Positions 22,678 through 45,332 of a DNA stretch of 64,000 bases are shown here, one piece after another (position 1 is the stretch's first letter; each line of letters starts with the position of its first letter). The stretch is taken from positions 3,312,001 to 3,376,000 of the forward strand of contig NZ_CP058990.1 of the NCBI RefSeq assembly GCF_019021925.1, in the 5' to 3' direction. Below the pieces are notes generated by a model that searched no databases, was not told the origin of the DNA, and saw only the letters and a program-made list of their open reading frames with translations. Origin of the DNA: Cellulophaga sp. HaHaR_3_176. Its GTDB lineage: Bacteria > Bacteroidota > Bacteroidia > Flavobacteriales > Flavobacteriaceae. The position numbers and the translations under genes were made by a program.

Positions 22678-22755
22678 AATCTGGTATTTAGTACTTTATA
22701 AAGATATAAAACCCAATTTTAGTGCCAAACATTTTAGTTAAGAGTTTAAAACAAA

Positions 22756-22778
22756 AAACCCCGCTTTTAGCGGGGTTT
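22756..22778 (-). terminator. Terminator of the ATP synthase operon
   Basis: The 10-base perfect GC-rich stem AAACCCCGCT/AGCGGGGTTT closes on 3 bases. Read leftward it is followed by TTTGTTTT. It lies 23 bases past the atpG stop. Confidence 0.9.
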
Positions 22779-22800
22779 GTATTTATAGAATATAAAAGTA

Positions 22801-23661
22801 TTAATTACTTAATGCTTCAGCGCCACCAACAATTTCTAAAATTTCGTTCGTAATAGCAGCTTGTCTTGCTTTGTTATATGTTAATTTCAATTGATCTCTC
22901 ATTTCTGTAGCGTTATCTGTGGCTTTATGCATTGCTGTCATACGTGCCCCGTGCTCACTAGCGAAAGAATCTCTAACACTCTTGTATAATTGTGTTTTAA
23001 GTGATTTTGGTATTAATTGTTCTACAATTTCGGTCTTAGAAGGCTCGTAAACATATTCAGCACTAACAGTTTCTGTGCTAGATACAGGAACAATTGGTAA
23101 AAATTGCTCAGTCATTATAATTTGAGTAGCTGCATTCTTGAACTTGTTATAAACAATTTCAATTTTATCATAAGAACCACTGGTAAATTTATCCATTAAT
23201 TCTTCTGCAATTTCAGCAACATTATCAAACGTTAGGTTATCATAAACAGAACTATAATTATTAAGTACAGTATGTTTTTTTGATAAAGCATCATTCGATT
23301 TTTTACCGATAGCGATAAAATCTACTTGTTTTCCTGCATACGTTTGGTTTGCAAGAAGTAAACTTTGCTTGATAACGTTTGTGTTAAATGCACCACATAA
23401 ACCTCTGTTTGAAGTTATAGATACTATTAATACTTTGTTTACCTCGCGGTTATCAGCATACTGGTTGCCTGTGTTTTCGTCTAAACTAGCACTCAAGCTT
23501 TGTAAAAGCTCAGTAAGTTTGTCAGAATAAGGACGCATAGCAGTAATTGCATCTTGAGCTTTCTTCAATTTAGCAGCAGATACCATTTTCATGGCACTGG
23601 TAATCTGCATAGTAGAAGATACTGATGCTATTCTGTTACGTATTTCTTTTAAGTTTGCCAT
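22801..23661 (-). CDS. atpG: ATP synthase F1 gamma subunit
   Basis: The gamma subunit is the central rotating shaft of F1, coupling c-ring rotation to catalysis in the beta subunits. The 286-residue protein has the conserved N-terminal coiled coil (MANLKEIRNRIASV) and C-terminal helix (YNKARQAAITNEILEIVGGAEAL). It is the last gene of the leftward atp operon and is followed by a strong terminator. The 76 bases between atpA and atpG contain a long inverted repeat (23676-23724). Confidence 0.97.
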   Translation of the reverse strand: MANLKEIRNRIASVSSTMQITSAMKMVSAAKLKKAQDAITAMRPYSDKLTELLQSLSASLDENTGNQYADNREVNKVLIVSITSNRGLCGAFNTNVIKQSLLLANQTYAGKQVDFIAIGKKSNDALSKKHTVLNNYSSVYDNLTFDNVAEIAEELMDKFTSGSYDKIEIVYNKFKNAATQIIMTEQFLPIVPVSSTETVSAEYVYEPSKTEIVEQLIPKSLKTQLYKSVRDSFASEHGARMTAMHKATDNATEMRDQLKLTYNKARQAAITNEILEIVGGAEALSN

Positions 23662-36727: not shown

Positions 36728-37714
36728 TTATTTTATAAGCACATGTTGTGCTTCTTTTAATAACATAATTCGCTTTTGTAAACCTATCTGTAAAGGCAAT
36801 TGTGCTAATCCAATAATCCTCCTAATGATTTCTATAGCTACAAATTTTTCACATAAACGATCATCTAATGAGCAAGATTTTTTATAGTGATTTAATGCTT
36901 TTTCAATTAATTTTTCTGGCTGATCGGCCATTTTTAAATGTGCAATTGTAACTCCTATTTCAAATTCAGCAAAACCAAAAAAACAAAATTCAGGGTCTAT
37001 AATTTTTATACCTGATGTTGTTTTTAACCAACTACCAGGAAAGTAATCGCCGTGCAATAATATATTACCATCTTCTAGATATAGTTTACCTAATTTTAGT
37101 ACTTCTTCTTTTAATTTTTCATCTTGTTTTAATAGGTTTGCTTGTGCTTGTAAACCTGGCAGAATATCATTTAAGTTAATTCCGTTTTCTTTTAAATACG
37201 GATACTTGAAAATATGCTCATGATTAAGCTCGCGCATTTTCTGATTTACAATTTTCTTAGTAGTAGTATCCGTTGTTATACTATTGTGTAAATTGGCGAT
37301 AAAATCGATAACAGTAAATAAAGCTTCTTCTGAAATAAATTCTCCTTTTTTGTAGAGGAATGAATAGTCAGACCCAGGACCTAAATCATCCATAAGCATT
37401 ACACTATTTTCTTGATCTAAACCAATAAGTTTAGGCATCATTTGTTTTAAATTAGATACATTTTCAATCAATGCGTAAAACTCAGCTTCACGCAAAACAC
37501 GTTCAGTTGGCGCTGCTACTTGAGGGTATTTTTCGACATAATCACGACTTTGCTTTATAATAAAAGATCTTTTATCAGTACGTATACGAAGTGTGAAATT
37601 CATATTACCCTCACCTGGTTTTTCTACAGAAAGAATAGTTTCTCCACTGTTAAGCCAATTTTTAGCTTGAAGATATGAGTTTAATTCTTTTATATTACTG
37701 TTTAATTTTATCAC
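36728..37714 (-). CDS. 5-methylthioribose kinase-like sugar kinase
   Basis: This is a phosphotransferase of the APH fold that resembles methylthioribose kinase (MtnK). The visible matches are the nucleotide-loop GEGNMNF (residues 34-40), the catalytic loop LLHGDYFPGS, the metal motif IIDPEFCFFG and the C-terminal EIIRRIIGLA, each close to the MtnK versions. The start taken is GTG, 1 base past the hydrolase stop; a TTG 24 bases further upstream is also possible. At about 328 residues it is shorter than MtnK (about 397). It is the last gene of the SusC, SusD, nucleoside hydrolase operon. I infer that it phosphorylates ribose, or a 5-modified ribose, released from nucleosides. No mtnA or other methionine-salvage gene is adjacent. 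Confidence 0.75.
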   Translation of the reverse strand: MIKLNSNIKELNSYLQAKNWLNSGETILSVEKPGEGNMNFTLRIRTDKRSFIIKQSRDYVEKYPQVAAPTERVLREAEFYALIENVSNLKQMMPKLIGLDQENSVMLMDDLGPGSDYSFLYKKGEFISEEALFTVIDFIANLHNSITTDTTTKKIVNQKMRELNHEHIFKYPYLKENGINLNDILPGLQAQANLLKQDEKLKEEVLKLGKLYLEDGNILLHGDYFPGSWLKTTSGIKIIDPEFCFFGFAEFEIGVTIAHLKMADQPEKLIEKALNHYKKSCSLDDRLCEKFVAIEIIRRIIGLAQLPLQIGLQKRIMLLKEAQHVLIK

Positions 37715-37715
37715 T

Positions 37716-38771
37716 CTATTTATTTTTATAACTGTCAATTAATTTTTGATGATAATCGGGTGCCACATCAAAGCAATATTTTACTGGTGTTCCTTTGGTG
37801 TCATCACAAAGTAGGTATTGTTTAAATACTTGCTTTTCATTTTCTTTTATAGTGTCATCAGGATGCAGTTCTAAACGCGCTAATAAAGGCTCGGAAATTA
37901 TATCTTCAGGTGAAATGATATAATGACTAGCTAAAGCATCAAAAGGATTGAAACCTGTTGCGCCTTGTGTTTGCCATTGCTCTAACCAAGGTTGTGATGC
38001 TGTTGCCAACCAATTCATTGGTATATTGAAAGCTTTAAGCGTATCTAAATCTTGTTGTTCAATCCAAACTTTACTAGAAACTTCAAAAGGACATAGCACT
38101 AAAGGAACTTCATAATCTAAAAGAACTTGGAATGCAGCATTGTCTAAATCAAAATTTAAATCTTTTGCTTTGACACCTTTCGTACCAATATTAAAAATAT
38201 CATTTGGTGTTCTACGACCCGCAACTAAAACCACTTCTTTAATTTGTGACTTCAGCTCAGGATATTTTAATATTAATATTCCAATGTTTGTTGCAGGGCC
38301 TATGGCTAATATGGTCATAGGTTCTTTTTTGAGAGCGCTTGCCAAAGCTTCTACAGCATCATTTGTCTTTACGTTGTTTATGTCAATAGGCTCTCCTGAA
38401 CCTTTAAAAACGGAGATTTTATGATCGATAAACTCTTTGTTAATATAATTACCAATAGCAAAAGCATTTTCAATACTATTATTACCATAAACAGTACTCA
38501 TCCCTTTTATTTCTACATTTTCAGCATTTAATAATTGCAATACAGCATAGCCATCATCAACATCAGAATATCCAGGTCTATTGATATTTTTCTTGCCAAC
38601 GGCTAAATCAGCATCAATCCATACCATTTTTTTACTTTCAACCTTTTCTTCAATTACAGTCTCTGTTTTTATTTTTTCAGTTTCTGCAATATCTTTTTTC
38701 TTTTCAGAGTTACATGCGCTAAACACTGTTATTCCTAATAAAATACCGATTAGATTAATTTTTTGTCTCAT
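37716..38771 (-). CDS. Lipoprotein nucleoside hydrolase
   Basis: This enzyme of the IUNH family splits the N-glycosidic bond of (modified) nucleosides to give a base and a ribose. The start was moved to MRQKINLIGI, giving a lipoprotein signal with Cys20 (FSAC), so the enzyme acts outside the cytoplasm. The metal site is present but unusual: DAD (53-55) and the DVDD (70-73) pair are separated by an insert of about 13 residues that family members lack (DxDxxxDD normally). The FNPFDALA segment near the C-terminus fits the second ligand region. The longer frame upstream runs into susD and is a shadow. It follows susD by 4 bases. Confidence 0.83.
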   Translation of the reverse strand: MRQKINLIGILLGITVFSACNSEKKKDIAETEKIKTETVIEEKVESKKMVWIDADLAVGKKNINRPGYSDVDDGYAVLQLLNAENVEIKGMSTVYGNNSIENAFAIGNYINKEFIDHKISVFKGSGEPIDINNVKTNDAVEALASALKKEPMTILAIGPATNIGILILKYPELKSQIKEVVLVAGRRTPNDIFNIGTKGVKAKDLNFDLDNAAFQVLLDYEVPLVLCPFEVSSKVWIEQQDLDTLKAFNIPMNWLATASQPWLEQWQTQGATGFNPFDALASHYIISPEDIISEPLLARLELHPDDTIKENEKQVFKQYLLCDDTKGTPVKYCFDVAPDYHQKLIDSYKNK

Positions 38772-38775
38772 AAAT

Positions 38776-40227
38776 TTATTCTTTTTCCCACCATCCTTTA
38801 CTATTAATATTATCTCCGCCAATCCTTTCAGATGCTTCTTGGTAATTTGCATTGTTTGAAGCTTGTTCTGATTCTGGATATAAATACCGAACGGGATATT
38901 TTCCTTCATTAAAATTATCAGGTCCTGCTTTTAAATTAGGAATACCTGTTCTACGGACATTAAACCAAGCTTCGTGCCCTACAGAAATTAGGCTAAACCA
39001 TTTTTGAACTAGTATCTTAGTAAGATCATTTTCACTTCCGTCTAAAGCTATTTCAGGTCTTGTAAAATAATCTGCAGGTAAAACGGTTTTGTAATAATCA
39101 AAACTAGCTGTAATTGCATTTTCGTAATACGTATTTGCATCTCCAGAGATATAGCCTTTAATAACAGCTTCTGCTAATGCAAATTGTGTTTCTGAATATT
39201 GCATGTATTGTGCATCTACACCATCTGGAGCATCGCGGAAAATACTTCCGAATAAAGAAATGTTATTTAAATCGACTCCACTACTTGCAATAGTGTTTGT
39301 AGATTGCCCATTTCCTAAACCATTATATTCTGGTGTTGTATTGTTGCTAGTAGCAGGAGTGGGGCTATAAAGTACTATCATACGTGGATCATTCCATGAC
39401 TTTAAGATAGAATCTGCAGTAGCAGTCATACGGTGTTCATTATAGGTACCTGAAGGAGCGTTGAATAAAGGAAACTGATTTGGTGCAGAACTCAAATAAG
39501 GTACCACGGCATTATCTGCATTTGATTGCATTAGGTTACCAGAATCTGCCAAGGTTTGTAGTGTACTAAAATCAGTACTTCTTTTACTAATACGCATTAG
39601 ATAGCGTACTTGTAAGGAGTTAGCAAATTTCACCCACTTGCTTAAATCACCATTGAATAAAACATCCCCTTCAATAGTGGCGTTGCTATTTTCTAAGGTA
39701 GCAACCGATTTTTGTAACACGGCAATAATCCCAGTTTGTGGGTCAGTATAAATGCTTTCTTGCGTATCATATTTTGGTAAAAACTCACCATCTAAAGCGC
39801 CTAAAGCTTCTGTATAGGGCACATCATTCCATAAATCTGTAAGTTGTGAGAATAAATAACTCTGCATAATATCGCCCACAGCATTGTAAGCTTCATTAGA
39901 GGTTGTTGATGCTTTTATAGATTGAATGTCTGAAAGTAATCCGAAAATTGAATTCCAGTATTCACTATTAGAACCCATTTCATAACGATCTATACGTTCA
40001 AATTCTATACTAGCTGAGAATTGGGCTAAATAATTAGACTGTCTAAACCCTTGTTCGTAGGCATTTAAATCTGATGAAACAGATAGTACGTTCGTCAATA
40101 AAAATTGTGGACTTACCGTTTCTGGATTATTATTGTTTTCGTTAATTTCATTAAAATCGTCAGTACACGCCGTAAAAACGGTACCAAAAATAAGTAGTGC
40201 TAAAAGTAGCTTTATATAATTTTTCAT
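38776..40227 (-). CDS. SusD/RagB-family nutrient-binding lipoprotein
   Basis: This is a 483-residue surface lipoprotein of the SusD-like_2 family that captures the substrate and passes it to the SusC-type channel. The lipobox cysteine is Cys21 (VFTAC), followed by the DDFNEINENNNNPETV start typical of this sub-group. The rest is an alpha-helical TPR-like scaffold. It lies 5 bases after the SusC gene and 4 before the nucleoside hydrolase, which suggests nucleosides or similar ribosides as ligand. The ligand cannot be read directly. Confidence 0.92.
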   Translation of the reverse strand: MKNYIKLLLALLIFGTVFTACTDDFNEINENNNNPETVSPQFLLTNVLSVSSDLNAYEQGFRQSNYLAQFSASIEFERIDRYEMGSNSEYWNSIFGLLSDIQSIKASTTSNEAYNAVGDIMQSYLFSQLTDLWNDVPYTEALGALDGEFLPKYDTQESIYTDPQTGIIAVLQKSVATLENSNATIEGDVLFNGDLSKWVKFANSLQVRYLMRISKRSTDFSTLQTLADSGNLMQSNADNAVVPYLSSAPNQFPLFNAPSGTYNEHRMTATADSILKSWNDPRMIVLYSPTPATSNNTTPEYNGLGNGQSTNTIASSGVDLNNISLFGSIFRDAPDGVDAQYMQYSETQFALAEAVIKGYISGDANTYYENAITASFDYYKTVLPADYFTRPEIALDGSENDLTKILVQKWFSLISVGHEAWFNVRRTGIPNLKAGPDNFNEGKYPVRYLYPESEQASNNANYQEASERIGGDNINSKGWWEKE

Positions 40228-40232
40228 TTTTC

Positions 40233-43200
40233 TTAAAATTCAGTTTTTAGACTAATACCAAAGCTTCTCGTAGACGGATATGAAAAATCTTCTACTCCGT
40301 AAGTAATACTTTGTTCTTGTAACGCATTTAATTCAGGATCAAAATGAGGGTTTTCAGTAAATAACAATAAATTGCTTCCTACTAACCCTAGTTTTATTTT
40401 ATTAAAACCAATAGCACTTACCAATTGATCAGGGAAATTGTAATAGATGCTTACCTGTCTTAATTTTACATAAGAGGCATCATACAAAGCACTGGCTTCA
40501 TTACCGCGATCAAAAAAAGTGTTGTTGTAATCTTGAGCAGAAACTACAGTAGTATTCGCTACGTACTGTGGCGTATCTGTAGTACCTACATTAACTACAC
40601 CAGCACCAATAATACCAGTTTCTCTGCCTTCAAGCGTTTCTTTTAAAACTCCAGAAGTGCTACCTAAAGCTTTTGTTCTAGAAACAATGGTGCCGCCTTG
40701 TCTCCAATCAAATAAGAAGGTGAAATCTAAATTTTTGAAAGAGAATTTATTGTTGAATCCAATTTGAAAATCTGCATTGTAATTTCCTAACAAGCGTAGG
40801 TTAGGATCTTGAATAGGGAATCCGTTTGAATCGTGAACCACTTGGCCGTCAACCTCTATAAAGCCTGTTCCGTACATATCACCAACACGACCATTTTCAC
40901 GAGCAATGTAAAATACCGTGTTAGAACCACCACCACCAGAAAAGATGTTTGCAGTGCCAGTCACAAATTGGTCTACGCCCTCAGGAAGTTCTGTGACAAT
41001 ACTCTTAGAGGTAGAAAAATTAGCAGAACTCTGCCATTGAAAATCAGCATTCTTTATAATAGTTCCGCTTACTAAGGCTTCAAAGCCTCTAGTGCGAACT
41101 TTACCACCATTCACGTTAAAGTTTGCAAACCCACTAGCTTGTGATATGGGTCTAGATATAATTTGATCTACACTGGTATTCTGGTATCCCGCAAGATCTA
41201 TTTGTAACCTTCCATCTAAAAACCAGGCTTCTAAACCTGTTTCAAAAGCATTTAATCGCTCAGGTTTTAGGTTGGCATTTTTTAGAACATTTTCATTGGT
41301 TACCCTAAAATCTGCACCATAATTTTGATTCAATAGAAAGTTCTGATTGTTTTGATACGGATCTGTGTCATTACCAACACTAGCAGCACTAAACCTTAAG
41401 TTTAAGAAAGTGATTGCCTCTGGCATGGTAAACATATTACTTACCACATAACTGAACCCTGCAGAATAATACCCAAAAGAGTTGCTGTTTTCTGGTAATG
41501 TGCTACTCCAATCATTACGGTAGGTAAAATCAAAATATAAGGAGTTTTTATAGGATAGATTTCCTGTTCCATAGATACTATTTATCCTTTTGGTAAATAA
41601 ATTGCTCTCTGCAACTAAAGCAGATTTAGAATTTGCTAAGGTATAAATGTCTGGAATGGCTAATTGTGACGCTTCAGTGAAACTGTATTTAATGTCTTGA
41701 TCAAAACGGTTAGCACCAGCAGCAACAGTATATTTCCAATCCTCATTGATGATATCTTTATACGAGAGTAAAATATCTGTATTCAATTCTCGAAAATATA
41801 CATTGTCTTCTCTAAATGAACCTTCAGGATTTGCATTGGTACTTACAGCACGCCTAAATTCTCTTTTATCATTATAGGTGTCAATACCTGCACGAACTGT
41901 TACATCAAACTTATCAGTAATATTATAAATAGCAGAAGCATTTCCTAAAAACCTATTTTTATTAAAGCTATTAGTGTTTTCAAAAACAGTTAAATACGGA
42001 TTTGTCAACCAATTGTAATTAATATCGAAATGTTGAACATTGGTTTGGCCAGCTTGCCAGTAGTCTTTCAATGACTCAACGTTTGCCTGTCTGCCTGTCC
42101 AATTAAAACCATATAGTGGGTTTTCATATCCATACCCTAAATTAGGGCGATTACCACTTCGGGTGTTTATATAGTTTACAAAAGCGTTTACATTAAGTTT
42201 ATCACTTAAAATCTGATTTACACTTAAAGATATACCATCTCTATCTAAATCTGTATTAGGTACAATACCTTCATTTCTTAAACTACTATAAGATAAACGA
42301 CTACTTCCGTTTTCACCTGAAGAATTTATAGCAATATTATTTTGCTTTGTAATTCCTGTTTCAAAAAAGTTACGGACGTTATCAGGGTTAGATACCCAAG
42401 GTGTTGCTGTAATAGGTGAGTAGGTGCCATCTGCAAAAGTTCTTGCAAGTACATCACCAGCACGTACGGTATTACCGTTAATATCTGTAGAGGGACTATC
42501 AAATTGATTGATTAAAAGTCCTTCGTTTAATCTTGGACCATAACTACTTAAACCACCATCGTTAACTCCAGCTCCAGCGCCATTCTGAAAAGAATATGCA
42601 CCATTGGAACCACCACCATATACGTTTTGGTAATCAGGTTGTGTTAATAATGTTTCAACAGTTAAAGAGCTACTAGTTGTAACACCAAAACCTTTTTTAT
42701 TCTTTCCTCTTTTAGTGGTAATAACCACTACTCCGTTAGCGGCCCTAGCCCCATACAATGCTGCAGAACCAGCACCTTTTAGTATAGAAATAGAAGCAAT
42801 ATCATCAGGACTAATTTCAGATCCACCATTACCAAAATCTACTTCTTGTAATGCACCATTATTTACAAGATTACTTGTAATTTGTTCATTGCTAATAGGT
42901 ACTCCATCTACAACAAATAAGGGTTGATTGCTACCGCCTAACGAATTTTCGCCACGGATAACAATTCGTGAAGAAGAACCAACACCTGATGAGCCATTCG
43001 TAATTTGTACCCCAGCTACTTGACCAGCAAGACTGTTTACAACATTGGTTAATGTAACTTCAGTAAGTTTTTCAGAAGCAACAGTGGTTACCGCTGAAAC
43101 TAAAGATTGCTTTTCCCTTTCAATACCTAAAGCAGTCACCACTATTTCATTCAATTGTTCAGTGTCTGTTTCTAATATAATTTGTTGAGGAAAATTGCCA

Positions 43201-43451
43201 TTGGTTATTGTGATATTTTGACTTTTGTAACCAATTGATGTAATATTAATTATAAAATTATTGGCACTTGTTTCAAAATTAAAACTACCGTCGTCAGAAC
43301 TAACAGAGTAGTTATTTGTTGTTGTCTCGTTTATTGTTGCATAGGGTATTGGCTGTTTATCAGTGTCTACCACAATTCCTTTATATGTATTTGTTTGAGC
43401 AAATACAGTAATTGCAAATAACTGGAGTACAGTTATAAGTGCTATTTTCAT
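40233..43451 (-). CDS. SusC/RagA-family TonB-dependent receptor
   Basis: This is a 1072-residue outer-membrane importer. It has a signal peptide (about residues 1-18), an N-terminal carboxypeptidase-regulatory-like (CarboxypepD_reg) domain (about 20-100), a plug domain with the LNEIVVTALG segment and the SRIVIRGENSLGGSNQPLFVVDG motif (about 100-230), then a 22-strand barrel ending in an aromatic residue (Phe). The substrate is pulled in by TonB. It is the first gene of the SusC, SusD, hydrolase, kinase operon; a hairpin at 43483-43525 lies just upstream. No regulator of the SusR or anti-sigma type is adjacent. Confidence 0.95.
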   Translation of the reverse strand: MKIALITVLQLFAITVFAQTNTYKGIVVDTDKQPIPYATINETTTNNYSVSSDDGSFNFETSANNFIINITSIGYKSQNITITNGNFPQQIILETDTEQLNEIVVTALGIEREKQSLVSAVTTVASEKLTEVTLTNVVNSLAGQVAGVQITNGSSGVGSSSRIVIRGENSLGGSNQPLFVVDGVPISNEQITSNLVNNGALQEVDFGNGGSEISPDDIASISILKGAGSAALYGARAANGVVVITTKRGKNKKGFGVTTSSSLTVETLLTQPDYQNVYGGGSNGAYSFQNGAGAGVNDGGLSSYGPRLNEGLLINQFDSPSTDINGNTVRAGDVLARTFADGTYSPITATPWVSNPDNVRNFFETGITKQNNIAINSSGENGSSRLSYSSLRNEGIVPNTDLDRDGISLSVNQILSDKLNVNAFVNYINTRSGNRPNLGYGYENPLYGFNWTGRQANVESLKDYWQAGQTNVQHFDINYNWLTNPYLTVFENTNSFNKNRFLGNASAIYNITDKFDVTVRAGIDTYNDKREFRRAVSTNANPEGSFREDNVYFRELNTDILLSYKDIINEDWKYTVAAGANRFDQDIKYSFTEASQLAIPDIYTLANSKSALVAESNLFTKRINSIYGTGNLSYKNSLYFDFTYRNDWSSTLPENSNSFGYYSAGFSYVVSNMFTMPEAITFLNLRFSAASVGNDTDPYQNNQNFLLNQNYGADFRVTNENVLKNANLKPERLNAFETGLEAWFLDGRLQIDLAGYQNTSVDQIISRPISQASGFANFNVNGGKVRTRGFEALVSGTIIKNADFQWQSSANFSTSKSIVTELPEGVDQFVTGTANIFSGGGGSNTVFYIARENGRVGDMYGTGFIEVDGQVVHDSNGFPIQDPNLRLLGNYNADFQIGFNNKFSFKNLDFTFLFDWRQGGTIVSRTKALGSTSGVLKETLEGRETGIIGAGVVNVGTTDTPQYVANTTVVSAQDYNNTFFDRGNEASALYDASYVKLRQVSIYYNFPDQLVSAIGFNKIKLGLVGSNLLLFTENPHFDPELNALQEQSITYGVEDFSYPSTRSFGISLKTEF

Positions 43452-43545: not shown

Positions 43546-44244
43546 CTATAAAGTAGGAGGGCCTCTTAAAAAGAAATTATGAAGTGGTATAGTAAAAGAA
43601 AAACCGCAAGTGCTAGTTTCGAATTTCTTTTTTTCTGACGTGTAATTAAATAAAATATAAGAGCTTACTTTAGATTTAGGATTGCTATATGCAAATTCTA
43701 AAGCATTGTTTTTCGAATCAATGTCAATCAAAGTTTCTAAAACAGAAAAAGAAAGTTCTTTTTCTATAGCAAAACGTTCTATTTCATCAGAAAGTTTACT
43801 CGTAAGCCAAGAGAAGTTTTTAAAAGCCTGTTCATTGAAAGCATTTTTGGTATACCCTAAAAGGTATATACCACCATCTTTAGATGGACCAAAAACCATT
43901 TGTTGATGCGAAAGTGATTTTATCGCTTGGCTAATATGGTTAGCGTTAAGGTTAGGTGTGTCGTTACCAATAGAGATAACTTTTTCGTAACCCTCATTAA
44001 ATAATGACTTGTATGCATTAAAGTAACGTTCAGCGAAAGTAGATCCTTTTTGCTGAGTTTCGTCAACCCAAACAACATCAACACCACTATCTTTTGCAAG
44101 ATTAAGTGTATTTTGATTAAGGAGCTTAAAAAATTGTTTTGATATATTTTTTTTGCTGACCCCAAATAATGGTTTCCTTTCCGCTTCGATTGTAGCAGAA
44201 AGTGAAAAAACAAATAAAACTGTTTTATTATTATTTGGTATCAT
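43546..44244 (-). CDS. DUF2064 glycosyltransferase-like protein
   Basis: This 232-residue protein matches the DUF2064 family (TIGR04282), which has a GT-A-like nucleotidyltransferase fold. Segments ISIGNDTPNLN and GPSKDGGIYLLGY are conserved positions in the family. Some members are linked to arsenosugar synthesis, but no arsenic genes lie here. Its stop is 94 bases before the SusC start, with a hairpin between, so it is probably separate from the SusC unit. Function is not known. Confidence 0.75.
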   Translation of the reverse strand: MIPNNNKTVLFVFSLSATIEAERKPLFGVSKKNISKQFFKLLNQNTLNLAKDSGVDVVWVDETQQKGSTFAERYFNAYKSLFNEGYEKVISIGNDTPNLNANHISQAIKSLSHQQMVFGPSKDGGIYLLGYTKNAFNEQAFKNFSWLTSKLSDEIERFAIEKELSFSVLETLIDIDSKNNALEFAYSNPKSKVSSYILFNYTSEKKKFETSTCGFSFTIPLHNFFLRGPPTL

Positions 44245-44615: not shown

Positions 44616-44663
44616 TATTTTAGGTTTTCACCTTTATTGTAATCTATTTCTTATATGAGATTA

Positions 44664-44671
44664 TATTTTTG
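44664..44671 (+). promoter_or_regulatory. -7 element of the TetR-type gene
   Basis: TATTTTTG matches TAnnTTTG perfectly and lies 46 bases before the ATG at 44718. A TTG at 44637-44639 is 24 bases upstream, slightly far. The imperfect repeat AGAC-TTTGCG-GTCT lies between this element and the start and could be an autoregulatory site. Confidence 0.4.
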
Positions 44672-44717
44672 TAAAAGACTTTGCGGTCTGTTTGTTAATT
44701 TCCTAAAACCCCAAATC

Positions 44718-45332
44718 ATGGAAAAAAATTTAAAGAGTATGGCTACTGTTCAGCGAATGCAAGTAGCAGGATTAGAGTTATTTTATAAGAATGGATTTTA
44801 TAATACTAGTGTAGATGATATTTTAAAAGAGTTGTCTTTATCTAAAGGTGCTTTTTATTATCACTTTAAATCTAAAGAAGATTTTTTCATATCAATTTTA
44901 CAAAACCTAGTAGTACGTAAAGTGTATAGCATGCTAATTGAACCTATTGAAGGACATGATAATCCATTAGACTTAATTACTAATTGTATTGAAGATGCTT
45001 TACAAACAGCAGAGCATAATGAGAATGATTATGGTTTTGTTTTAAGTAATTTTATAAGTGAATTTAATGGTAAAAACCCTGAAATTATGAAGTACCTGAA
45101 TGATACTTTAAAAATATGGGAGGTTAATTTAGTTTCATCTTTGCAAAAAGGAAAATTTAATGGCTATGTAGACCGTCATATTGACTGTGAGGGTGTAGCA
45201 TCATACATTATGTCTTCTTATATCGGAATAAGGTCTTTAATGGTAGAAGGTACAGCATCTGCTTTAAGATACCGTTATATGCAACAGTTAAAATTCTACT
45301 TTAAAGCAATGGCATCAAAGCAAACAGCTTAA
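44718..45332 (+). CDS. TetR/AcrR-family transcriptional regulator
   Basis: This is a 204-residue one-component regulator. The N-terminal helix-turn-helix is clear (SVDDILKELSLSKGAFYYHFKSKEDFF, about residues 28-55) and is followed by an all-helical ligand-binding domain. The start is taken at MEKNLKSM, 21 codons inside the longest frame, since the region before it contains the promoter and family members begin here. It faces the GT9 gene tail-to-tail with a shared TTAA stop. No efflux or degradation gene is adjacent, so the target is unknown; autoregulation through the repeats upstream is plausible. Confidence 0.88.
   Translation: MEKNLKSMATVQRMQVAGLELFYKNGFYNTSVDDILKELSLSKGAFYYHFKSKEDFFISILQNLVVRKVYSMLIEPIEGHDNPLDLITNCIEDALQTAEHNENDYGFVLSNFISEFNGKNPEIMKYLNDTLKIWEVNLVSSLQKGKFNGYVDRHIDCEGVASYIMSSYIGIRSLMVEGTASALRYRYMQQLKFYFKAMASKQTA

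Follow-up and report, generated by a model that had tools for sequence, protein, structure and literature searches.

The rus locus of Bacteroides thetaiotaomicron couples a SusCD pair to a nucleoside hydrolase and carries a PfkB-type ribokinase in the same operon. Enzymes of the nucleoside-hydrolase (IUNH) family cut N-glycosides, and the histidine of their HD motif has a catalytic role. In this study, a 64,000-nucleotide stretch of the genome of Cellulophaga sp. HaHaR_3_176 (the window) was found to encode a compact operon in which a SusC/SusD pair is followed by an IUNH-family hydrolase and a kinase resembling 5-methylthioribose kinase (MtnK). MtnK is marked (PMC2194712) by a GXGNXN G-loop, an HGD catalytic loop, a DXE metal motif, and a twin-arginine (RR) motif, with roles in O1 phosphorylation and sugar binding. 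Its relative DrdK accepts both 5-deoxyribose and methylthioribose and showed no activity on ribose (PMC6079011). A further point of comparison is provided by the arsenosugar biosynthesis genes (ArsM, NF038099; ArsS, TIGR04167; TIGR04282; and TIGR04283), among which ArsS is reported to carry out the radical SAM adenosylation of arsenic (PMC12159101). Seaweeds are rich in organoarsenic, mostly arsenosugars and arsenolipids (PMC6656958), and the algal arsenosugar named there is an O-glycoside.

On balance, we favor the view that the operon is a riboside-scavenging system whose kinase product feeds the TIGR04282–PNP–DUF547–TIGR04283 pathway, the sugar probably being a 5-substituted 5-deoxyribose. 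The evidence consists of the identity of the encoded proteins, the conservation of the kinase–hydrolase pair in relatives, and the association of the kinase with TIGR04283 in genomes lacking ArsS.

Operon Organization and Protein Identities

The genome is a single contig of 3.80 Mb, and the operon comprises the following genes:

40233..43451, minus strand: SusC-type TonB-dependent outer-membrane transporter, 1072 aa
38776..40227, minus strand: SusD-like outer-membrane lipoprotein, 483 aa
37716..38771, minus strand: nucleoside-hydrolase (IUNH) family protein, probably an exported lipoprotein, 351 aa from the ATG at 38771
36728..37714, minus strand: MtnK-like small-molecule kinase, 328 aa, with a GTG start 1 base after the hydrolase stop; predicted cytosolic sugar 1-kinase

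A preliminary description of this DNA had reported four leftward genes separated by 1–5 bases, and re-reading of the DNA confirmed this, with all four genes on the minus strand and gaps of 5 bases (SusC/SusD), 4 bases (SusD/hydrolase), and 1 base (hydrolase/kinase). A longer mechanical reading frame of the hydrolase overlaps SusD, and the ATG at 38771 was taken as its start. The order SusC–SusD–hydrolase–kinase recurs in relatives down to 57–59% kinase identity (L117 and L040), indicating that it is not a chance arrangement. Among the best 80 of 137 kinase relatives, the closest named one is from Cellulophaga algicola (77% identity).

The assignments made earlier to the four products (TonB receptor, SusD, IUNH-family hydrolase, and APH-fold kinase) are borne out by domain matches above the respective cut-offs. 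SusC matches TIGR04056 with 572.6 bits (cut-off 368) and TIGR04057 with 55.2 bits, also above its cut-off, and is followed directly by SusD, which matches PF12771 with 288.7 bits (cut-off 27). By sequence, the best solved match of SusC is BT_2264 (5fq6_B, 423.9 bits), which presumably has a role in peptide uptake, and that of SusD is the SusD homolog 3ejn.

The kinase matches PF01636 (APH) with 37.4 bits (cut-off 23.2) and TIGR01767 (MTRK) with 122.5 bits, well short of the curated MtnK cut-off of 275, a threshold reached by none of the 296 genomes sampled across the phylum. All four marks of MtnK are nevertheless present: the motifs GEGNMN, HGD, D-P-E, and RR are conserved across 112 aligned rows, the longer motifs quoted in the preliminary description were confirmed in the sequence, and the RR motif aligns with residues 332–348 of Bacillus subtilis MtnK. 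The closest solved kinase is MtnK itself (2olc and 2pyw). By profile, by sequence comparison with solved chains, and by fold, the kinase resembles MtnK and not the homoserine, choline, or antibiotic kinases, so that in this form the refuting outcome named in the preliminary description did not arise; the alignment with MtnK covered five MtnK-type rows (three annotated mtnK and two unannotated) and one outgroup. All PfkB matches in this genome map outside the operon. Some sources label members of this kinase family 5-methylthioribose kinase; this label is at odds with the window genome, because the isomerase of the known pathway is absent there: a search for the MtnA-type isomerase (PF01008) gave zero matches in the genome and was positive in 9 of 14 control genomes.

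The hydrolase matches PF01156 (IU_nuc_hydro) with 103.4 bits (cut-off 34.2), and structural comparison, as had been suggested earlier, showed a nucleoside-hydrolase fold with the metal-site aspartates. It contains a lipobox-like sequence, TVFSAC, so the protein is probably an exported lipoprotein. The window hydrolase has Phe before the last conserved aspartate, and the relatives compared have Phe, Trp, or Tyr, whereas four aligned solved chains have HD. The glutamate of the EFN motif, which we take to contact the 5'-OH, is replaced by aspartate in 27 of 27 aligned hydrolases.

The Kinase–Hydrolase Module in Related Genomes

The pairing of the kinase with a riboside hydrolase is a widespread module. 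A gene of a riboside-hydrolase family adjoins the kinase in 83 of 108 non-redundant loci (on the same strand in 74), compared with 2 of 1281 non-adjacent open reading frames, as counted with profiles built from neighbor clusters and with Pfam names taken from representatives; the riboside theme of the preliminary description is thereby upheld. The partner may be of the window type (type A), type B, type C, or an ADP-ribosylglycohydrolase lipoprotein, and type B occurs with a different TonB receptor (TBDR9) in nine loci. The ADP-ribosylglycohydrolase-family lipoprotein stands beside the kinase at L030:191-1492 and in 40 other loci, 95% of them on the same strand.

The location of the hydrolase appears to vary with the transporter. 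Genes for a YnjB-type ABC importer lie in or beside the operon in L041, L072, and L199, where the hydrolase was found, and also in L039. The hydrophobic N-terminus of the hydrolase is absent in 3/3 loci with the importer (L041, L199, and L072) and in 2/25 loci without it (p=0.003), several of the 25 being congeneric. Such a pattern would be expected if the transporter carried the very compound that is hydrolyzed. We read these arrangements as two versions of one pathway, in which the riboside is either cut outside and the sugar imported, or imported and cut inside. The window would represent the outside-cutting version, with its inner-membrane permease probably encoded elsewhere; a YnjB-type importer was not found in the window genome in a search that had no control. 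The earlier remark that an inner-membrane route is missing therefore applies to the genes adjacent in the window, but in some relatives the gap is filled by the YnjB-type importer, together with a hydrolase lacking a signal peptide.

Linkage and Co-occurrence with the TIGR04283 Pathway

Linkage was analyzed in 34 Flavobacteriaceae kinase loci (33 genomes, with two loci in G225), including as much as about 10 kb of flanking sequence per side, with genes called by phmmer to seeds bearing NCBIfam names. TIGR04282 and PNP lie 3' of the kinase on the same strand in 20 of these loci, of which 19 (all but L197) have an ADP-ribosylglycohydrolase gene in between, 18 contain TIGR04283, 12 DUF547, and 10 ArsM. 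ArsM resides within the cluster in 10/13 cases with ArsS above the cut-off in the genome and in 0/7 cases without it. Because the cluster shares ancestry, the 20 linked loci are not 20 independent events. At L117 (G225:C91), a window-type locus adjoins DUF547, two TIGR04283 genes, and, by eye, MerT-like and mercuric-reductase-like genes.

In the window genome, TIGR04282, PNP, DUF547, and TIGR04283 are found together at about 2,713,310-2,716,273 (G000:C1), TIGR04283 scoring 223.2 bits, above its cut-off, and the other three being called by phmmer. ArsS gives a best E of 2.2e-7 there, below the cut-off, and ArsM gives no match at E 1e-60, a level at which 146 of the 249 sample genomes match. A small exported protein is encoded ahead of this cluster (L200:6782-10274, about 2,712,781-2,716,273), and a similar one precedes TIGR04282 in 8 of 9 loci by eye (not L205).

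Co-occurrence was examined in 249 Flavobacteriaceae genomes, of which 33 carry the kinase, 183 ArsS over the cut-off, and 172 TIGR04283 over the cut-off; the kinase matched 34 genomes, and G155 (partial, E 7e-4) was dropped. A direct test for co-occurrence of the kinase with ArsS was negative, which leaves the ArsS-negative genomes as the informative subset. In these 66 genomes, TIGR04283 is present in 13/15 with the kinase and in 1/51 without it (G242; p=7e-11). When only hand-picked genomes no smaller than 3.5 Mb and at least 99% complete are considered, the figures are 11/11 and 0/10. ArsS-negative genomes of the window's class in the phylum sample (296 genomes) show the same pattern (7/10 versus 0/43; 5/8 versus 0/41 after removal of genomes of the Flavobacteriaceae sample). 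In the phylum sample, kinase status was taken from TIGR01767 matches, all under the cut-off, and seven genomes with weak or partial matches (G295, G261, G276, G330, G387, G434, and G437) were counted as kinase-absent. TIGR04283 was called at E 1e-49 or better, and no ArsS-negative genome has an E between 1e-54 and 1e-37. The presence tables were compiled by hand, and ArsS-negative genomes outside the ArsS match lists were assigned by elimination.

Linkage alone does not explain the co-occurrence, since TIGR04283 lies apart from the kinase locus in G000, G203, and G129. The simplest reading is that, within the class, TIGR04283 needs a sugar supplied by either ArsS or the kinase. Plain ribose, which is in every cell, would not create such a dependence, which points to a 5-substituted ribose.

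The DUF2064 Gene and Other Neighboring Features

Two further genes border the operon:

43546..44244, minus strand: divergent DUF2064 protein, first gene of the conserved unit; PF09837 75.1 bits; C-terminal LRGPP tail
44655-45332, strand opposite to the DUF2064 gene: TetR-family regulator, transcribed divergently from it

The four genes described earlier as a compact operon are real, but the conserved unit is larger and includes the DUF2064 gene, which lies 94 bases upstream of SusC and is also found 5' of SusC in L032-L038 (Cellulophaga and Maribacter), L040 (Membranihabitans), L117 (genome G225), and L039 (an Owenweeksia metagenome-assembled genome, MAG). Most related loci have it upstream of SusC or another TonB receptor, and L041 has it upstream of the ABC genes. 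The protein scores 92.1 bits against TIGR04282, under the cut-off of 134, suggesting a divergent relative. In the window and in L032-L045, L049, and L070-L072, an LRGPP-like tail (with RAPP and KGSP variants) is conserved and the KTRL motif is lost, whereas the canonical copies in the alignment (L108 and L110) are without this tail. An RNA element at the 3' end of the gene was considered and rejected; the RGPP stretch is variable at its third codon positions, and its conservation is therefore read as that of the protein.

In the Owenweeksia MAG, a radical SAM protein is encoded between the kinase and the DUF2064 gene (L039:11017-12030). A TetR-family gene also borders the rearranged operon of genome G129 (L118). 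A riboswitch search at Rfam gathering scores, covering the window and seven other loci, returned a Trp leader far off in the window (Trp_leader, 22751-22834, minus strand, 41.3 against a threshold of 41); two of the other loci gave matches to Flavo-1 RNAs and to a tRNA. The Flavo-1 matches (L070:9852-9929 and L072:10991-11078) are located immediately 5' of, or overlapping, the start of the kinase gene, and in the stretch that separates it from the hydrolase gene.

Proposed Function and Alternative Explanations

In the proposed mechanism, a ribose-containing compound would be captured and brought through the outer membrane by SusC/SusD, its glycosidic bond would be cleaved by the exported IUNH-fold lipoprotein, and the freed sugar would cross the inner membrane via a permease encoded elsewhere, to be phosphorylated on O1 by the cytosolic MtnK-like kinase. 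Riboside uptake, hydrolysis, and O1 phosphorylation are likely. The resulting sugar 1-phosphate would most likely enter the TIGR04282–PNP–DUF547–TIGR04283 pathway, a plausible step with good comparative support, whereas ArsS-carrying relatives would feed the ArsS product instead. The leading candidate for the sugar, probably a 5-substituted 5-deoxyribose, is dimethylarsinoyl-ribose, as found in arsenosugars. A bolder and somewhat unlikely version has the operon dedicated to the uptake and salvage of algal arsenosugars or arsenic-ribonucleosides: SusCD would import a 5-deoxy-5-dimethylarsinoyl riboside, the hydrolase would free the arsenic-bearing ribose, and the kinase, taking the place of ArsS, would make the 1-phosphate that bacteria lacking both ArsM and ArsS would feed into the later half of arsenosugar assembly. 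What the data show are gene order, folds, motifs, linkage, and co-occurrence; the substrate, the direction of flux, the permease, and each catalytic step are inferred from them.

Several observations weigh against the favored view. Kinase genomes are depleted in ArsS (18/33 versus 165/216, p=0.01) and most ArsS genomes are without the kinase, so the kinase does not itself belong to arsenosugar synthesis. The association breaks down outside the class, where TIGR04283 occurs in 41 of 119 ArsS-negative genomes counted as kinase-less (five of the 41, G261, G276, G387, G434, and G437, being weak partial MtnK-like cases) and must therefore have other sources. A kinase match without TIGR04283 or ArsS is seen in five genomes (G052, G081, which is 66% complete, G321, G354, and G486), G014 has the kinase and ArsS without TIGR04283, and G242 has TIGR04283 without either. 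The statistics treat related, non-independent genomes without tree correction, an adjoining hydrolase gene is missing from 25 of the 108 kinase loci (some of them ending at a contig edge), and the pathway genes of the window genome are unlinked to the operon. Finally, the algal arsenosugar has an O-glycosidic bond, whereas the known action of IUNH enzymes is on N-glycosides.

Ordinary nucleoside or ribose scavenging as in rus, in which nucleosides are split outside, ribose is imported, and ribose 1-phosphate is converted to ribose 5-phosphate by phosphopentomutase, would account for the IUNH-fold hydrolase, the SusCD pair, a kinase with O1-type motifs, and the presence in linked clusters of PNP, also a maker of ribose 1-phosphate. 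We regard it as somewhat unlikely, given the inactivity of DrdK on ribose, the substitution of the EFN glutamate, and the pairing of TIGR04283 with the kinase or ArsS in the class, which plain ribose leaves unexplained. Salvage of methylthioadenosine or methylthioribose, the former suggested in the preliminary description, or of 5'-deoxyadenosine or 5-deoxyribose, would agree with MtnK as the closest solved kinase and with the dual specificity of DrdK; however, both known routes, methionine salvage and the 5-deoxyribose (drd) shunt, use an MtnA-type isomerase. With zero PF01008 matches in the genome, these routes were set aside, and the MtnK cut-off, unreached throughout the phylum sample, likewise makes this salvage very improbable. 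That SusCD imports an unrelated solute, such as peptides, and that the hydrolase–kinase pair is merely co-transcribed, is suggested by the match to BT_2264 but appears quite improbable, as the pair occurs with the TBDR9 receptor in nine loci and with the ABC importer in others, and the location of the hydrolase varies with the transporter. The interpretation given in the preliminary description is, as a whole, partly supported.

If bacteria import and phosphorylate arsenosugars in this way, the operon would provide genes for organoarsenic turnover and would explain orphan TIGR04282 and TIGR04283 copies; even with another C5 substituent, the results outline a kinase family of MtnK-like type that is widespread and tied to riboside hydrolases. 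No title or abstract opening matching this operon was found among the matches listed in the open-access literature searched.

Comparison with Known Systems

The window operon shares its SusCD pair and nucleoside hydrolase with rus; in contrast to the PfkB-type kinase there, it has an MtnK-like kinase, no adjacent transporter gene, and an attached DUF2064 gene. Its kinase is only about 21–27% identical to MtnK and DrdK, is mostly missing the segment that precedes the RR helix in MtnK, and has KYP in place of the W-loop SWP found in most MtnK rows. The likeness to BT_2264 is one of SusC sequence only; no resemblance of the hydrolase or kinase is claimed, and the substrate is not drawn from it. 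Compared with the arsenosugar biosynthesis genes, the window DUF2064 protein falls under the TIGR04282 cut-off and the window genome has no ArsM match and a sub-threshold ArsS, whereas TIGR04282 and TIGR04283 are represented there together with PNP and DUF547, and in relatives the kinase and ADP-ribosylglycohydrolase genes lie near TIGR04282, PNP, and TIGR04283, ten of these loci also having ArsM.

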